From assembly GCA_012032555.1 (NCBI GenBank), contig JAAUSR010000047.1:1-41496 (forward strand): DNA of 41,496 nucleotides. The letters run 5' to 3'. Position numbers and translations under genes: made by a program. Shown in pieces: positions 9,673 to 23,406 of this stretch. The stretch's first letter is position 1, and the number at the start of each line of letters is the position of its first letter. Origin of the DNA: Thioploca sp. Its GTDB lineage: Bacteria; Pseudomonadota; Gammaproteobacteria; Beggiatoales; Beggiatoaceae. Under the pieces are notes generated by a model. It saw only the letters and a program-made list of their open reading frames with translations, was not told the DNA's origin and did no database searches.

Positions 9673-9806
9673 GTTATCAGTTATCAGTTATAATGTTTAT
9701 TGGGTTATCAATTATTAAGCGATAGTTATCCACTCTGGCCGGTCTGTTATCAATCTTTAGGTTAACTTATTCATTGATAACTGATAACGGGTAACCGATA
9801 ACTGAA
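9673..9806. repeat. TAACTGA heptamer repeat block upstream of purH
   Basis: The left arm (9673-9694) carries GTTATCAGTTATCAGTTAT. The right arm (9774-9806) carries the complementary GATAACTGATAACGG plus CGATAACTGAA. Together they can form a long stem around about 80 bases. The 3' arm ends just before the purH ribosome binding site (AGGAGA at 9812), so it would lie in the 5' leader of any transcript starting upstream. Confidence 0.8.
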
Positions 9807-9822
9807 ATAATAGGAGAATAAT

Positions 9823-11396
9823 ATGGTCGGTATTAGACGGGCTCTCATCAGTGTGTCAGATAAAACCGGAATTGTTGAATTTGCTCAGGCTTTAGTTCAT
9901 TACGGGATTGAAATCTTATCAACCGGTGGTACGGCTCAATTACTTTCAGCGAGCGGTATTCTAGTAAGAGAAGTTGCTGAATATACCGGTTTTCCGGAAA
10001 TGATGGCCGGGCGGGTTAAAACCTTACATCCTAAGATTCATGGTGGTTTATTGGGTCGACGTGGGATAGATGAGACTATCATGAAGGAACAGGGGATTGA
10101 ACCAATTGATTTATTAGTTGTTAATTTATATCCATTTGCACAAACTATTGCTAAACCAGGGTGTGATTTAGCTGAAGCCATTGAAAATATTGATATTGGC
10201 GGACCAGCGATGCTCCGTTCTGCCGCTAAGAATTATCAAGCTGTTACTGTAGTAGTCGATATTCATGATTATGATCGAGTGTTAATAGAAATGGCGACAA
10301 ATAATGGCGTGATAACCGCAGCAACCCGTTTTGCTCTAGCACAGAAGGTGTTTACTCATACGGCTGTTTATGATGGCGCTATTGCTAATTATTTAGGTCA
10401 AATGAGCAGTGTTAATGAAATCGGCTTTTCCCCGCTATTGACTTTACAATATCAAAAGAGACAAGCCATGCGGTATGGTGAAAATCCTCACCAATCAGCT
10501 GCTTTTTATGCTGATCTCAATCCACCAGCTGCCGGTATCGCGACTGCTCAGCAATTACAGGGAAAAGAATTATCTTATAACAATGTTGCTGATACCGATG
10601 CTGCTTTAGAGTGCGTAAAATCTTTTGAGGAACCGGCTTGTGTCATTGTTAAACATGCTAATCCTTGTGGTGTGGCAATTGGAGAAAATATTTTAGCAGC
10701 TTATGAACGGGCTTTTAAAACCGATCCAACTTCTGCTTTCGGGGGCATTATAGCGTTTAACCGTTCCTTAGATGCGCCAACCGCTAAAGCGATCATTGAG
10801 CGCCAGTTTGTTGAAGTCATTATTGTTCCCCAAGTGACTGAAGAAGCTAAACCCATTTTAGCAATTAAGGCTAATGTACGAGTATTGATGTGTGGTGATT
10901 GGAATAATAAGATAGTATCACCAATAACAAATGACTGGGATTTTAAGCGGGTGAATGGCGGGTTATTAGTACAAGATCGTGATCGTGGTACTGTTACTCA
11001 AGCCGAGTTAAAAATAGTGACCGAACGACAACCCACTGATCAAGAATTGCAGGATTTACTCTTTGCTTGGAAAGTAGTCAAATTTGTTAAATCCAATGCG
11101 ATTGTTTACTGTAAAGACGGCATGACTATTGGCATTGGTGCTGGACAAATGAGTCGCGTTTATAGCGCTAAAATTGCGGCAATTAAGGCTACTGATGAAC
11201 AGCTAGAAGTAAAAGGATCAGTTATGGCATCGGATGCTTTTTCCCTTTTCGGGATGGAATTGATGCCGCTGCTCGGGTTGGTATTACCGCAGTTATTCAA
11301 CCGGGTGGTTCAATGCGTGATAATGAAGTTATCGCTGCTGCTAATGAACAAAATATAGCAATGGTTTTCACCGGTATGCGTCATTTTAGACATTGA
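9823..11396 (+). CDS. purH: PurH, AICAR formyltransferase/IMP cyclohydrolase (frameshift near 3' end)
   Basis: A bifunctional enzyme for the last two steps of purine synthesis (AICAR to FAICAR to IMP). The MGS-like cyclohydrolase domain comes first ([39 protein letters not shown]). The formyltransferase domain follows ([38 protein letters not shown]). After VMASDAF the frame reads SLFGMELMP and ends at 11358. Adding one T to the T-run at 11238-11242 restores the family ending: [11 protein letters not shown]...GGSMRDNEV...[11 protein letters not shown], stopping at 11396. The corrected length is 524 residues, close to the usual 520-530. AGGAGA five bases upstream fixes the start. The frameshift is either real or a homopolymer sequencing error; the gene is normally a housekeeping one. 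Confidence 0.93.
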
Positions 11397-11398
11397 TT

Positions 11399-11588
11399 CA
11401 GTTATCAGTTAACTGGACCACTACATTTAAACTTTGTTTATTTCAATAAGTTATTATAGTTAACCTAAAAATTAAAGAACGAACAAGAAGTAAACAATTA
11501 TCAGTGAATAGTTATTGATTATCAGTTATAATATTTAATAGTTATCAACAATAACTGATAACTGATAACGGGTAACTGATAACTGAAA
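11399..11588. repeat. TAACTGA heptamer repeat block between purH and the cyclase gene
   Basis: It contains TCAGTTATCAGTTAACTGG (from 11399), GTTATTGATTATCAGTTATA (from 11511) and a tandem ATAACTGATAACTGATAACG followed by GGTAACTGATAACTGAA (11551-11587). The last part differs at only one position from the block end upstream of purH over 31 bases. The cyclase ATG at 11589 follows the repeat directly, leaving no room for a normal Shine-Dalgarno sequence. Confidence 0.8.
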
Positions 11589-12698
11589 ATGTTTCTAGAC
11601 TTAATTCAACTGCTACTTCGTGAGCAAAAAATTGGTTATGCTATGGTTGATTCGCAGCTAACCGTATTGGCTTATGAAGGCGAATTATCTTTATTTAATG
11701 GTCTTAAAGGGACTAGAAAATTATATTTACTTGATTTAGTTCCGGAATTAATGGGTTGTGAAGACCTATTGCAAGAAATATTACGGGGCGAATTACCCCG
11801 TTTTGAGCTAGAAAATCTTAACCGTACCGATTCTGCTAATAATATTCGTTATATCACGGTGGCGATCTTACGCCATATTTGGGAACATATTGAACAACCT
11901 ATATTGTTGGTCACTTTAACGGATACTTCTGAATGGGTAAAAACCCAGCAAATACTCACTCAACAACGTAATGAACTCAGTCTGTTAAAACAAAATCTAG
12001 CCGAAACTAACCAACGTTTAGAATTTATTTTGCAGCGTTATGTTCCCAAAGAGGTTGGTGTGGCTTTAATGGAAAAACGCATTTCGCCTGAATTGGGGGG
12101 AGCAGCCAGAGAAATCTCGGTTTTATTTGCAGATTTACGTAATTACACCAGTATTAGCGAGAAGCAAACGCCCAAAGAAACAATTGACATGTTGAATATT
12201 TGTATGGATATCGCTAGTACAGCTATTGCTGAAGCCGGTGGTGTTATCGTGAATTATATGGGTGATGGAATCATGGCTATTTTTAATGCACCCGATAAAC
12301 AACCTAATCATGCTCAACGAGCGGTTAAAGCGGGGTTAACGCTACAAAAAATAGCGAAACTTTATCAACAATATGAAGAAATCGAAAAATATCCCCCCTT
12401 TCATTTTGGAGTGGGAATTAATACCGGCGTGGCACTGGTTGGTAATATTGGGGCACAATGGCATTATCAATATTCAGCCGTAGGTGATACCGTTAATGTA
12501 GCTTCACGGATTTGTAGTCATGCTAAACCGGGTGAAGTCTTAATTGGTGCTAATACCTACAGTCAAGTTAAAAATAGTGTGGTTGCTAAAGCTCTCCCAG
12601 CAACTCAATTCAAAGGGAAAAGTGAAGCGTTAGTTACTTATCAAGTTATTGAGTTATTTGAAGATAACTTTCCGTTTAAACTGGGAAATCCAAACTAA
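11589..12698 (+). CDS. Class III adenylate/guanylate cyclase with N-terminal PAS-like sensor
   Basis: A 369-residue cytoplasmic protein that should make cAMP or cGMP. Residues 1-115 form a PAS-like sensor (YAMVDSQLTVLAYEGELSLF). Residues 118-148 form a coiled-coil linker (QQILTQQRNELSLLKQNL), then comes the catalytic domain (about 168-355). The two metal-binding Asp are present (FADLRNYT, Asp182; MGDGIMAIF, Asp226), as are the transition-state Asn and Arg (VNVASR, Asn303 and Arg307). In the position just before YMGD, where a substrate-selecting Lys is common, there is Asn, so the base specificity is open. The start follows a TAACTGA repeat without a ribosome binding site. It converges with the hybrid kinase gene, 27 bp apart, and shares its sensor-linker layout. 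Confidence 0.88.
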   Translation: MFLDLIQLLLREQKIGYAMVDSQLTVLAYEGELSLFNGLKGTRKLYLLDLVPELMGCEDLLQEILRGELPRFELENLNRTDSANNIRYITVAILRHIWEHIEQPILLVTLTDTSEWVKTQQILTQQRNELSLLKQNLAETNQRLEFILQRYVPKEVGVALMEKRISPELGGAAREISVLFADLRNYTSISEKQTPKETIDMLNICMDIASTAIAEAGGVIVNYMGDGIMAIFNAPDKQPNHAQRAVKAGLTLQKIAKLYQQYEEIEKYPPFHFGVGINTGVALVGNIGAQWHYQYSAVGDTVNVASRICSHAKPGEVLIGANTYSQVKNSVVAKALPATQFKGKSEALVTYQVIELFEDNFPFKLGNPN

Positions 12699-19840: not shown

Positions 19841-20170
19841 TCAACGGTTGTTAACCATTTTTTGTAATCGCTTTAAAAAAACCATCATTTCTTTAGCAGC
19901 TTGTTTATCACCTTGTTCTTCTGCTACGGTAATTCCTTGCGTGTAAACTTCAATAGCTTCTTGAATCTGTTGATTTTCGCTTAGAGCTTTACCATAATTT
20001 TTCCAAGCTGCAGAATACTTGGGGTTAAATTCAATAGCTTTGGCAAAATGCTGCGCTGCTTGTGCAAAATCCTTTTGTTTGAAATAGGCATTACCCAAAC
20101 CAAAACGAAGTAAGGCATTGTCTTGCCCTTGTGTTAACAAAGCTTCAAAATTCTTGATCAGTTCATTCAT
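19841..20170 (-). CDS. Small TPR-repeat protein
   Basis: A 109-residue, all-helical protein with about three tetratricopeptide repeats: NALLRFGLGNAYFKQKDFAQA, AAQHFAKAIEFNPKYSAAWKN and YGKALSENQQIQEAIEVYTQG. TPRs mediate protein-protein contacts; no signal peptide is present, so the protein is cytoplasmic. Its partner is unknown. It sits between rnpB and the DUF498 gene, all on the minus strand. Confidence 0.85.
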   Translation of the reverse strand: MNELIKNFEALLTQGQDNALLRFGLGNAYFKQKDFAQAAQHFAKAIEFNPKYSAAWKNYGKALSENQQIQEAIEVYTQGITVAEEQGDKQAAKEMMVFLKRLQKMVNNR

Positions 20171-20285
20171 GGGCTACTACCGGTGAAAGAAACTTTAACT
20201 ACAATGGGATCGAAATATTACCGTCTAAAAGAAAAGCGAGATGAGGCAGGAAATTAATAGCCAAAAAATAGACCATTAAAAAATA

Positions 20286-20742
20286 AAGGTAGTTGATCGA
20301 TAAGCCGGGTTCTGTTCATTACTTATAGCAAGCAATGTAGCAGTCATTCATCTGGGGTATTTGTCACCAAATACCTCTAGCAACCTACCCGGGAATAATG
20401 CGGACCACATCGGTAGTCGCCTTAGCGGCGTCTACTATTCCCCTATTTGGTCTTGCTTCAGGTGGGGTTTACCTTGCCATTGATGTTACCACCAACGCGG
20501 TGCGCTCTTACCGACACCTTTTCACCCTTACCTCTTTCAGTTAGCAGTTAGCAGTTATCACAATTAATTATCTAATATTCATTGATAACTGATAACTGCT
20601 AACTGAAATTGGCGGTATATTTTCTGTGGCACTTTCCGTAGACTTACGTCTCCCAGGTGTTACCTGGCACCTTGTCCTGTGAAGCCCGGACTTTCCTCTG
20701 TATTTTAAATAAATACAGCGACTGCTTAACCAACTACCTACC
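20286..20742 (-). ncRNA. rnpB: RNase P RNA (class A) with TAACTGA-repeat P12
   Basis: The catalytic RNA that processes tRNA 5' ends. Conserved regions are all present on the minus strand: GAGGAAAGTCCGGGC near the 5' end, GTGCCAGGTAAC...CCTGG, AGGTAAGGGTGAAA, GGTAAGAGCGCACCGC, GGTAAACCCCACC, AGCAAGACCAAATAGGGG, GATGAATGACTG and ACAGAACCCGGCTTAT at the 3' end. Helix P1 pairs GGTAGTTGGT (5') with ATCAACTACC (3' end at about 20289). Between ACCGCC and GGTAAGGGTG, where P12 belongs, there is a 74-nt hairpin of TAACTGA-type repeats. This makes the RNA about 455 nt, longer than the 377 nt of E. coli. Confidence 0.95.
20535..20608 (-). repeat. TAACTGA-type repeats inside rnpB (P12)
   Basis: On the RNA strand the 5' arm reads TTTCAGTTAGCAGTTATCA (20608-20590). 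The 3' arm (20560-20535) reads TGATAACTGCTAACTG and then CTAACTGAAA. The arms pair perfectly over at least 16 bp and enclose about 29 AT-rich bases. The 3' arm has one extra heptamer, so the helix can slip in register. Confidence 0.85.
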
Positions 20743-20782: not shown

Positions 20783-21012
20783 TTATAAAAATAATTCTGG
20801 TTTGCCTATCCCAAATCCTTGAGCAAAATCAACCCCGATAGCTTTTAAAGCTAGTAAAGTCGCCTCATTTTCTACCCACTCGGCAATGGTTTTTAGTTTC
20901 ATAACATGTCCAATTTGAGTGACTGCTTCTACAATCGCATGATCGATTGGATCAATGACCATATCTTTCACAAAACTACCATCTAATTTGAGATAATTCA
21001 CCGGTAATTGTT
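20783..21012 (-). CDS. C-terminal part of the EAL domain, separated by a frameshift
   Basis: This frame continues the EAL domain of the gene at 21013-23406. Including upstream codons it reads YLKQLPVNYLKLDGSFVKDM, then HAIVEAVTQIGHVMKLKTIAEWVENE and FAQGFGIGKP. The Lys-Asp pair (LKLDGSFV) and the Glu (TIAEWVE) are residues that EAL phosphodiesterases use. A free-standing product from ATG 21001 would be a useless 72-residue piece. It should be read as one gene with its upstream neighbour; the joined product would be about 874 residues. Confidence 0.8.
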
Positions 21013-23406
21013 TTAAATAACCAATGATGATACCCCACTACCAAAATCGTCTAGCGCAAAACGGAATCCAAGTTGACTCATTTCTTGCATAAATTCGACG
21101 GCTTTATCTAAAGACGAAATAGCAGTCGTTTCAGTAATCTCAAAACACACTAATTGAGTTGGTACGGCTAAAATTTCTAATTCATCACGGATAAATTGAG
21201 CAAAACTAGGGTCATTTAAGGTGGCGCCGGATAAATTAATAGCAATAAAATCAGATAATTTATCCGCTTGAGGCTGGTTAGCGAGATGGGTGAAAACCTT
21301 ATGTACTACCCATCGATCAATTCTGGGCATTAGATTATAACGTTCTGCCGCCGGTAAAAAACTGCCGGGAAAAATTATTTTTCCATCTTCATCGCGCATT
21401 CGTATCAAAATTTCACCATGCACTTCTGATTGTTTGTTAGGGTCAACCGGTGCAATTTTTTGTTTGTATAATACTAATCGATCTTCTTCTATGGCTTTGA
21501 TAATGCGACTTACCCACAGCATTTCTCCTTGCCGTAGGGTTACTAATTTTTCATCTTCACCGATAGAAACATGGATACAATTACGTCCTTTATCTTTAGC
21601 GGCATAGCAAGCGAGATCAGCATTACTCAATACCGCAGCTATATTTTCAGTTTGAACATTAATCGGTACAACCCCAATACTGACTCCAATTTCAACGCTT
21701 CTATCTTCCCAAACAAAGCGAAAGTCACGTACCGCGTTCAGATAGGCTTCTGCTACTACCCCCGCATATTCGATGGAACAATCTTTTAATAAAATCCCAA
21801 ATTCATCCCCACCTAAACGGGCAAAGATATCACCATGACGTACTCGTGTTTGCAGAACCGTAACAAGTTGTTTTAACAAGGCGTCGCCGGCGGCATGTCC
21901 TTGAGTATCATTGATGATTTTAAATTGATCAAGGTCAAGGTAAAGAAAGGAATGTTCTTGATCTTCTATTTTAGTGTTATTGATTAAACTCGTTAATTGG
22001 TATTCAAATTCACGACGGTTATATAATCCGGTCAAGGCGTCATGACTCGCTTGGTGAGATAATTGTTCGCGTAATCGATGTTCTTTACTCACATCATGGA
22101 ACACCATAATAACACCTTCAATTTGACCATAACGGTCACGGATCGGTGCCACTGAATTTTCGATGGCAATAGTTTGTTGTTGGTGATTAATTAATAAACT
22201 TTGTTGAGGAGGATTAACAATACCACGTAAACATCGTGTCACTAAGTTTTCTATTGTACCCTCATCTGAGCTTTTAAGCTGAAACAAGGTAGTAATGGGT
22301 TGGTTAATCGCTTGATAATTAGTGTAACCAATTAATTCTTCTGCCACCGGGTTGAGGTAAGTAATTCGACCTTGGTTATCCGTGGTAATGACAGCGTCTG
22401 CAATAGAGTGAAGGGTGTTATTGGCGAGTTCTTTTTCTTTATGTAAATTTTCTTCGGCTTGATAACGTTCCGCGTAAGCAGCGGCAACCAGAAAGGCCGT
22501 AAAAGAAGTAATACTAATAAACCCAATTTCTAAAAGTAAGTCACTGGTTTCGATAAATTCTCCAGTCGGATAAATTCGATTGAGCCCACCACTTAAGAGG
22601 ATAGTGGCTATAACGAGTGCTGCGAGAGTCGCACCATGTTGTTGAAATCGAACTGCTGCCCAAACCGCAAATGGTAAAATAAGATATAGAAAAATCAGTC
22701 TGTTACCATAGTCAACTTTTAAAGTAAGACTACTTACTAAGGTGAGACATAATAATACCGCGATGCCTTCGAATAAATGCCAATAATTATAACCTTTTAA
22801 CGGCAATTGTCGCCACACGAGTAAAGTAGAGGTTAACACCAGCATACTGATACCATCATTAAACCAACTGGTTAGCCAAATCTCACTCAGATATTCGCTC
22901 GGGATATCGTTTTCTATGAATAAACCGATCATCGCTACACTGGCTCCTAATAGAGGGGCAATGATAAAGACGACGATTCCAAATAAAAAAGTATCACGTA
23001 CATGGGCAAGATTAATTCGAAATTGAAAGTATTTCAGGATTTGCGTCGCAAAAATCGCCTGAACAATAGCACCGAGTGCTGAAAAGCTAGTCAACATGAG
23101 GGGAACATTCATGTCAGTGTCTAACCAGGACAGGATTGGAATGGTCTTTAAGTTAGTATTGAGTAAAAACAATCCTACCACAATCCCTGGCCATAGATGT
23201 ACACTAAAAAGTAATAAAGCCGCTAAAGCAATGCCCGCCGGCAACGGGATAGGCATAACGCCACGTTGTCCACCTTCGAGCACAAAGCCAATATAACCAG
23301 CCACATAATAAATGATAGCCAGTAAGGTCATATGCCATACACCAGTCAGTCGATATCGCCAAGGTGAAGAGCGAATTGACTTTAATTTATTGATTTTATT
23401 TTGCAT
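21013..23406 (-). CDS. MASE1-PAS-GGDEF-EAL protein (c-di-GMP turnover), 3' end frameshifted
   Basis: The frame gives 797 residues. Residues 1-310 form a polytopic MASE1-like sensor with about 8 membrane helices. A PAS domain follows (about 325-440; ADAVITTDNQGRITYLNPVAEELIGY), then GGDEF (450-615; catalytic GGDEF at 532-536, with an RxxD inhibitory site at 523-526) and the EAL domain (EILIRM, INLSG, FEITETTAI, ALDDFGSG). The frame ends SSLVI* inside the EAL domain. One extra G at 21021-21022 would give SSLGYLKQLP and join the next piece. Both the cyclase and phosphodiesterase motifs are intact once joined, so the protein could make or break c-di-GMP at the membrane. Confidence 0.9.
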   Translation of the reverse strand: MQNKINKLKSIRSSPWRYRLTGVWHMTLLAIIYYVAGYIGFVLEGGQRGVMPIPLPAGIALAALLLFSVHLWPGIVVGLFLLNTNLKTIPILSWLDTDMNVPLMLTSFSALGAIVQAIFATQILKYFQFRINLAHVRDTFLFGIVVFIIAPLLGASVAMIGLFIENDIPSEYLSEIWLTSWFNDGISMLVLTSTLLVWRQLPLKGYNYWHLFEGIAVLLCLTLVSSLTLKVDYGNRLIFLYLILPFAVWAAVRFQQHGATLAALVIATILLSGGLNRIYPTGEFIETSDLLLEIGFISITSFTAFLVAAAYAERYQAEENLHKEKELANNTLHSIADAVITTDNQGRITYLNPVAEELIGYTNYQAINQPITTLFQLKSSDEGTIENLVTRCLRGIVNPPQQSLLINHQQQTIAIENSVAPIRDRYGQIEGVIMVFHDVSKEHRLREQLSHQASHDALTGLYNRREFEYQLTSLINNTKIEDQEHSFLYLDLDQFKIINDTQGHAAGDALLKQLVTVLQTRVRHGDIFARLGGDEFGILLKDCSIEYAGVVAEAYLNAVRDFRFVWEDRSVEIGVSIGVVPINVQTENIAAVLSNADLACYAAKDKGRNCIHVSIGEDEKLVTLRQGEMLWVSRIIKAIEEDRLVLYKQKIAPVDPNKQSEVHGEILIRMRDEDGKIIFPGSFLPAAERYNLMPRIDRWVVHKVFTHLANQPQADKLSDFIAINLSGATLNDPSFAQFIRDELEILAVPTQLVCFEITETTAISSLDKAVEFMQEMSQLGFRFALDDFGSGVSSLVI

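Follow-up and report, generated by a model that had tools for sequence, protein, structure and literature searches.

TAACTGA-type heptamer repeats in the P12 helix of RNase P RNA in a Thioploca genome, with similar arrays in cyanobacteria and Bacteroidota

The window analysed here is the whole of a 41,496-nucleotide stretch, positions 1 to 41,496 of contig JAAUSR010000047.1 from the Thioploca sp. assembly GCA_012032555.1. On its minus strand, at 20285-20737, lies rnpB, the gene for the bacterial class A RNase P RNA, found by cmscan with Rfam model RF00010 at 324 bits (E 1.6e-105) against a gathering score of 100. The match covers positions 1-367 of the covariance model, its full length. Two minus-strand neighbours flank the gene: downstream an ORF at 19841-20170 that we take to be TPR-like, and upstream a presumed GGDEF/EAL-like gene at 20783-23406, read as two ORFs. 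Both occupy the same places beside rnpB in a second genome of the genus, G001, when ORFs are compared by eye. The GGDEF/EAL-like gene falls into two frames near 21001-21013 in the Thioploca genome and is continuous there in G001; the split is a frameshift, possibly a homopolymer assembly error. The genome that contains the window (G000; 5.55 Mb, 99.69% complete) has a single RF00010 match, this rnpB, and encodes rnpA (one match). Because no other rnpB match occurs in so complete a genome, and because rnpA is present, rnpB is presumably functional with the insert described below.

The cmscan alignment places a large insertion in the P12 helix of this RNA, between ACCGCC and GGTAAGGGTGAAA. A sequence-only reading of the window had put a 74-nt hairpin of heptamer repeats at this position, at 20535-20608, and cmscan and RNAfold confirm it exactly, on the minus strand. 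The hairpin has two 26-nt arms and an AT-rich tip of 22 nt at 20561-20582, delimited by sequence. In RNA sense the 5' arm (20583-20608) reads TTTCAGTTAGCAGTTATCAGTTATCA, that is, TTT followed by three CAGTTAK-type heptamers and CA, and the 3' arm (20535-20560, delimited by sequence and pairing) reads TGATAACTGCTAACTGCTAACTGAAA. The junction of arm and tip, GTTATCAATGAATA, spans 20576-20589. Each arm consists of three heptamers plus five further bases, and the two are equal in length and register. RNAfold pairs them over 16 bp, a 1x1 mismatch (U.C) and a further 9 bp, giving 25 pairs over 26 positions where at least 16 bp had been proposed. An additional heptamer, formerly assigned to the 3' arm, is absent; it appeared because only exact copies of TAACTGA had been counted, two on the plus strand and one on the minus strand, while TAACTGC is a variant unit within the arms. 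The minimum free energy is -41.6 kcal/mol for 98 nt (z = -9.4), a value equalled by none of 200 shuffles, and the hairpin matches itself on the opposite strand at 82% over 74 nt.

Some 23S rRNA intervening sequences are excised, giving fragmented or rejoined RNA. A 25-bp helix such as that of P12 might plausibly be an RNase III substrate, and the insert could on this account be a removable spacer, transcribed with rnpB and then excised to leave a mature RNase P RNA that is fragmented or rejoined; we give this account almost no credence.

Heptamers of the same type occur well beyond rnpB. The window contains 38 copies of TAACTGA, where 6.19 would be expected (sd 2.62); the largest count in 100 shuffles was 13. 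The sequence-only reading had named two blocks with the heptamers of P12, at 9673-9806 and 11399-11588, and both are borne out. Each, on the plus strand, has TCAGTTA-type units at its left and TAACTGA-type units at its right. The first lies upstream of an ORF at 9823-11358 (plus strand) that we take, from its sequence, to be purH-like; the second, which we delimit at 11398-11588, abuts the ATG of the ORF at 11589-12698. The purH-like ORF appears to lose its frame near 11240, and another frame is readable to about 11397, with what is presumably the expected C-terminal end of the protein. By eye, some TAACTGA arrays stop a few bases before start codons, for example at window positions 11580-11591 and at some other loci in the genome.

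Searched against G000, the 82-nt block of P12 gives 53 local matches at E<=0.01, self on both strands included. The string GTTATCAGTTATCAGTTA has 44 occurrences in this genome and its reversed control none, and TAACTGATAACTGA has 108 against 2 for the control, overlapping positions being counted separately. The junction between arm and tip recurs as well. Its pattern, GTTATCARTGAATA, is found at 11 places in G000, namely P12 and ten others, and at 4 places in G001, with none for the reversed control in either genome; several of these sites are followed by AT-rich sequence. That P12 has its heptamer and its arm/tip junction in common with ten other sites in the genome argues against an alternative in which the P12 repeat grew in place, by slippage combined with selection for pairing, and came to resemble the dispersed heptamers by convergence. 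We consider growth in place unlikely, and return below to the observations in its favour.

Array sites in G000 were also seeded with a pattern from one arm alone. At 13 of the 26 such sites an inverted partner lies no more than 150 bp away, the remaining 13 lack one, and every one of the 13 inverted pairs has the polarity of P12, with TCAGTTA at the left and TAACTGA at the right. A frequent arrangement of the family is a palindrome with a TCAGTTA-type left arm, an AT-rich tip and a TAACTGA-type right arm. The one-arm sample supersedes an earlier count, biased because its loci had been picked by similarity to an inverted query, in which 16 showed the P12 polarity, 2 ran in the same direction and 1 was opposite; the lone opposite case consists of the facing ends of two adjacent arrays 131 bp apart. 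In a small sample from G056, 2 of 9 seeds had an inverted partner, and 5 same-direction neighbours were seen. The folding energy of P12, -34.5 kcal/mol over 82 nt, is per base within the range of the 13 genomic inverted pairs, one of which is stronger per base than P12. No Rfam match at the gathering score was found in 20 array loci (L074-L093, of 30 loci). As judged from sequence, the assignment of the P12 hairpin to the dispersed heptamer family of G000 is supported.

In being short, dispersed, noncoding palindromes that form hairpins, these elements resemble MITEs and repetitive extragenic palindromes, and terminal inverted repeats of the kind found in MITEs are present in P12 and in 13 of the 26 seeded arrays. 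Unlike those of MITEs, the arms here are tandem heptamers of variable number, the interiors are mostly unshared, and no target duplication was identified. Copies elsewhere in G000 share with P12 the arms and the arm/tip junction, not a full common interior; of the interiors compared, the junction alone recurs between copies. A search for an empty site with target duplication found none, and no site among those compared was a clean empty site. With neither a target-duplication site nor a full common interior, a classical mobile element is not established.

Repeats of this sequence have been described before. MacGregor (2015; PMC4679880) reports TAACTGA repeats in Beggiatoaceae, cyanobacteria and Bacteroidetes, so that the heptamer, the bacterial family and the spread over three groups are the same as those found here. 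As that paper describes them, the repeats of the BOGUAY genome are mostly intergenic direct repeats close before start codons, with one inverted repeat. The array described here differs in its location, within an RNA gene, and inverted pairs make up half of the arrays seeded in G000. By the terms of the same paper, the series TAACTGA-TAACTGC-TAACTGA at 20586-20606 in P12 is a split set; its position inside rnpB is not the intergenic, pre-start-codon position of the BOGUAY repeats, which some other copies in the G000 genome do occupy. MacGregor suggests horizontal transmission by a mechanism that was not evident, and proposes an unknown factor that binds TAACTGA repeats near start codons (PMC4679880). 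P12 heptamers might accordingly be under selection for a function, such as binding this proposed factor, which would link RNase P to its network, and the arrays of G000 that stop, by eye, just ahead of a start codon, as at the ORF at 11589, are in keeping with this. The comparison among relatives that follows weighs against selection for function, which we regard as very unlikely.

The order set comprises 42 genomes. Matches to rnpB were found in 37, and P12 was read in all 37, with a second partial copy in G013 excluded; the five genomes with no rnpB match, three of which are repeat-rich (G009, G031 and G038), stand outside the association test. Heptamers in P12 are clear in G000, in the same-genus G001, where the array is shorter, and in G033 (genus g21), and are present in decayed form in G030 (g20). 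G034 and G035, from the genus of G033, have a short, T-rich P12. Set against the abundance of the repeat, these are 3 clear cases and 1 decayed case among the 10 genomes with at least 20 tandem TAACTGA counts, and none among the other 27. The one-sided Fisher p is 0.015, or 0.003 with the decayed G030, values that are uncorrected for kinship and serve only as a guide; at thresholds of 10 and 40 counts p lies between 0.001 and 0.021. P12 heptamers in a repeat-poor relative, the observation named in the sequence-only reading as one that would speak against it, were thus sought in this order and not found, and their absence from all 27 is a second point against growth in place.

Abundance alone brings no invasion, since an ordinary short P12 is found in six of the ten repeat-rich relatives; one of them, G029, has 679 counts and no P12 heptamers. 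The same six of ten speak against selection for function, as does the variation of arms and copy number within genera; the polarity of P12, moreover, is one that the inverted pairs of the genome already show. The proposal that the RNA is a sink of the repeat family fits these data, P12 heptamers being confined within the order to repeat-rich genomes, and the converse proposal, that it is a source, is unsupported given the ordinary P12 of six repeat-rich relatives. As for the claim that the repeat had entered a tolerant arm of an essential RNA, a family member does occupy an outer arm of rnpB, a gene that is single-copy and apparently functional; its entry and its tolerance belong to the scheme proposed further on.

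Outside P12, the rnpB genes of G000 and G001 share 95% identity. Comparison by eye of the outer 13 positions of P12 finds ten unchanged, two with double changes and one at which the pair is lost in G001. The double changes, from G000 to G001, are U-A to G-C and A-U to C-G, and preserve pairing. The pattern suggests that the helix has been maintained between the two genomes, although exchange between the arms could give the same result. A MAFFT alignment of the two P12 regions put the 5' arm of G001 wrongly and was left unused.

A tree of rnpB built without P12 pairs G000 and G001 with support of 100/100, and the four rows with heptamers need 3 changes on it. The node that joins g1 and g21 is weak (81/76), the bootstrap had not settled and long branches were flagged; given the weakness of this node, one gain of P12 heptamers with losses is possible. 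The tree also places two Bacteroidota rows within the order, at the end of a very long branch; we regard this placement as an artefact. Acquisition of the whole rnpB from a cyanobacterium was ruled out: once P12 is removed, the gene is placed beside that of G001 within the order, and the cyanobacterial rows, seven in number, have a branch to themselves.

The position of heptamers within RNA genes was surveyed by a tandem scan of the order set and a cyanobacterial sample, in which 104 of 128 rnpB loci could be bounded. At a threshold of at least 13 of 14 positions, below which G001 and G033 fall with their few units, period-7 tandems occur in P12 in 16 cases (L001 among them), in the 5' part of rnpB in none and in the 3' part in one. 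For periods of 4 to 15, the only one that occurs in bounded rnpB besides 7 is 14. The single 3'-part case, L035 (G032), was rejected as an example of heptamers in another helix, being an A-rich low-complexity stretch near P16-P17. This rnpB measures 477 nt and has large AT-rich inserts at two places, near P16-P17 and ahead of the 3' end, with no TAACTGA units visible by eye. For tmRNA, 37 matches over the cut-off in the Beggiatoa order measure 330-382 nt and show no comparable expansion. None of the 30 of these that were scanned has a period-7 tandem at threshold, those of G000, G001 and G033 being judged by length only; L333 (G011) gives a single tandem match with two mismatches.

P12 arrays outside the order were sought in genome_contigs, a collection described as holding a single genome per species for 84,980 species; the pattern required two TAAC-type units in the P12 3' arm. 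Since the pattern itself sets the polarity of its matches, that polarity is not used as evidence. Of 33 matches, 32 have heptamer-like P12 arrays by eye, some of them degenerate: 27 from cyanobacteria, 4 from Bacteroidota and 1 from a Guaymas gammaproteobacterium which, by its P12 sequence, is G033 itself. The Clostridium match was rejected as fortuitous. Of the 33 loci, 14 were checked against RF00010, and all 14 gave a match. The cyanobacterial arrays include those of Microcystis, Microcoleus and Crocosphaera. Among the Bacteroidota, Adhaeribacter, Rufibacter and Pontibacter have TAAC-type units, degenerate in Rufibacter, and Hymenobacter has another heptamer. Twenty of the 33 loci were picked by hand for genome-wide counts of exact TAACTGATAACTGA, in which copies from P12 itself are included (one of two in G046); it occurs in 18 of the 20 genomes and in neither Hymenobacter nor Rufibacter, so the tie between heptamers in P12 and TAACTGA across the genome is not absolute outside the order.

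These wider data contain what speaks for growth in place. Five Microcystis loci have a P12 of 111-184 nt, measured from CACAGAAA to GTAAGGG, a range within one genus that argues for gain and loss of units in place. In Rufibacter the P12 units are of TAAC type, yet the rest of the genome contains no exact tandem copies, and other cyanobacteria hold quite different heptamers there, of GGGGACT, GGAGATT and GGGTAAT type.

Polarity was examined in a sample of the cyanobacterial phylum that had not been chosen for its heptamers. It contains 126 genomes, of which 124 have rnpB; 91 were read, and 69 were bounded by anchors, some of the P12 limits reaching too far upstream (L131). Eight of the 69 bounded P12s, centre genome included, have at least two TAACTGA-type units with at most one mismatch, and these units lie in the 3' half in all eight and in the 5' half in none. 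Constancy of this kind in an unselected sample is what selection for function might produce. Many of the cyanobacterial P12s among L039-L071 pair a CAGTGAA-type 5' arm with a TGATAAC-type 3' arm, which leaves four regular pairs and a short run of mismatches per heptamer turn in place of a perfect helix. The reversed control AGTCAATAGTCAAT is frequent in G047 (136 + 196) and also in G042, G045 and G059, which suggests another heptamer family in those cyanobacterial genomes.

In the order of G055 (Pontibacter), rnpB was found in 77 of 78 genomes; all 77 were read and 69 bounded. Period 7 occurs in one P12, period 8 in one, and neither elsewhere in the gene. G055, which had been found through its heptamers, is itself below the period-7 threshold. 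By eye, P12 in L282, L290, L246 and L264 from this order resembles degenerate repeats of about 8 bases, of GTGAGTTA type.

Heptamers in the rnpB of heterocystous cyanobacteria are already known. These short tandem repeats, called STRRs, are said to be heptamers that lengthen P12, that differ or are unrelated between close strains, and that are reportedly dispensable for activity in vitro. The title of Vioque (1997) places STRR sequences within rnpB of heterocyst-forming cyanobacteria, and that work is cited in a passage of PMC2858038 for the statement that P12 is sometimes dispensable. The passage gives cyanobacteria as an example, and its statement counts further against selection for function. 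Tandem heptamers inside rnpB are common to the STRR case and ours, and here the same family is also dispersed across the genome. The host differs from the heterocystous cyanobacteria in being a gammaproteobacterium, and similar P12 arrays are found in Bacteroidota and in cyanobacteria outside the heterocystous genera, the non-heterocystous status of Microcystis, Microcoleus and Crocosphaera resting on genus names. RNase P and rnpB give no match in the main text of MacGregor (2015; PMC4679880), and RNase P gives none in the available text of a Thiomargarita paper that counts TAACTGA. Among the literature matches listed, none deals with rnpB heptamers in Beggiatoaceae or Bacteroidota. What is new here is the case in Gammaproteobacteria, and the analysis adds that such arrays are more widely spread, constant in polarity and concentrated in P12.

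We think it probable that the P12 arm is a copy of the dispersed, heptamer-armed palindrome abundant in G000, tolerated as an extension of P12 that is most likely neutral. A copy of the palindrome would have entered the tip of P12 in the ancestry of the genus or before it. The insert may have been tolerated because outer P12 is far from the catalytic core, and because a palindrome would simply extend an existing helix. Pairing would afterwards have been preserved either by selection on the RNA or by mutual correction of the arms, while units were gained and lost, and comparable invasions of P12 may have taken place separately in cyanobacteria and Bacteroidota. Insertion is favoured over growth in place by the shared junction and by the link, within the order, between P12 heptamers and repeat-rich genomes, and neutrality is suggested by the absence of heptamers from P12 in six of the ten repeat-rich relatives and by the variation within genera. 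The repeat is most likely a neutral extension of P12, and the presence of similar repeats in this arm in many cyanobacteria and some Bacteroidota marks P12 as a site where they have landed repeatedly.

A more speculative reading, which we hold to be highly unlikely, makes P12 a preferred target. A system common to Gammaproteobacteria, cyanobacteria and Bacteroidota would add seven-base units to inward-facing 3' ends, for example at broken DNA or at the tips of hairpins. Such a system would account for the seven-base unit, the constant polarity of the pairs (13 of 13) and their variable interiors, as well as for the polarity of cyanobacterial P12s (8 of 8) and the near absence of the repeats elsewhere in rnpB and in tmRNA. 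The one exception of opposite polarity and the Bacteroidota with other units lower its odds. If P12 is indeed a preferred target, RNase P RNA would be a natural recorder of the unit-adding activity.

The finding extends a phenomenon described in heterocystous cyanobacteria to the giant sulfur bacteria and to Bacteroidota, where both the helix and the heptamer type are shared. It also calls for caution in rnpB annotation and in structure models, where the length of P12 can mirror repeat invasion and not adaptation. Because rnpB is single and essential, P12 offers a comparable, phylogenetically anchored site at which the gain, loss and growth of repeats may be timed, and a test site for the means by which these repeats spread.
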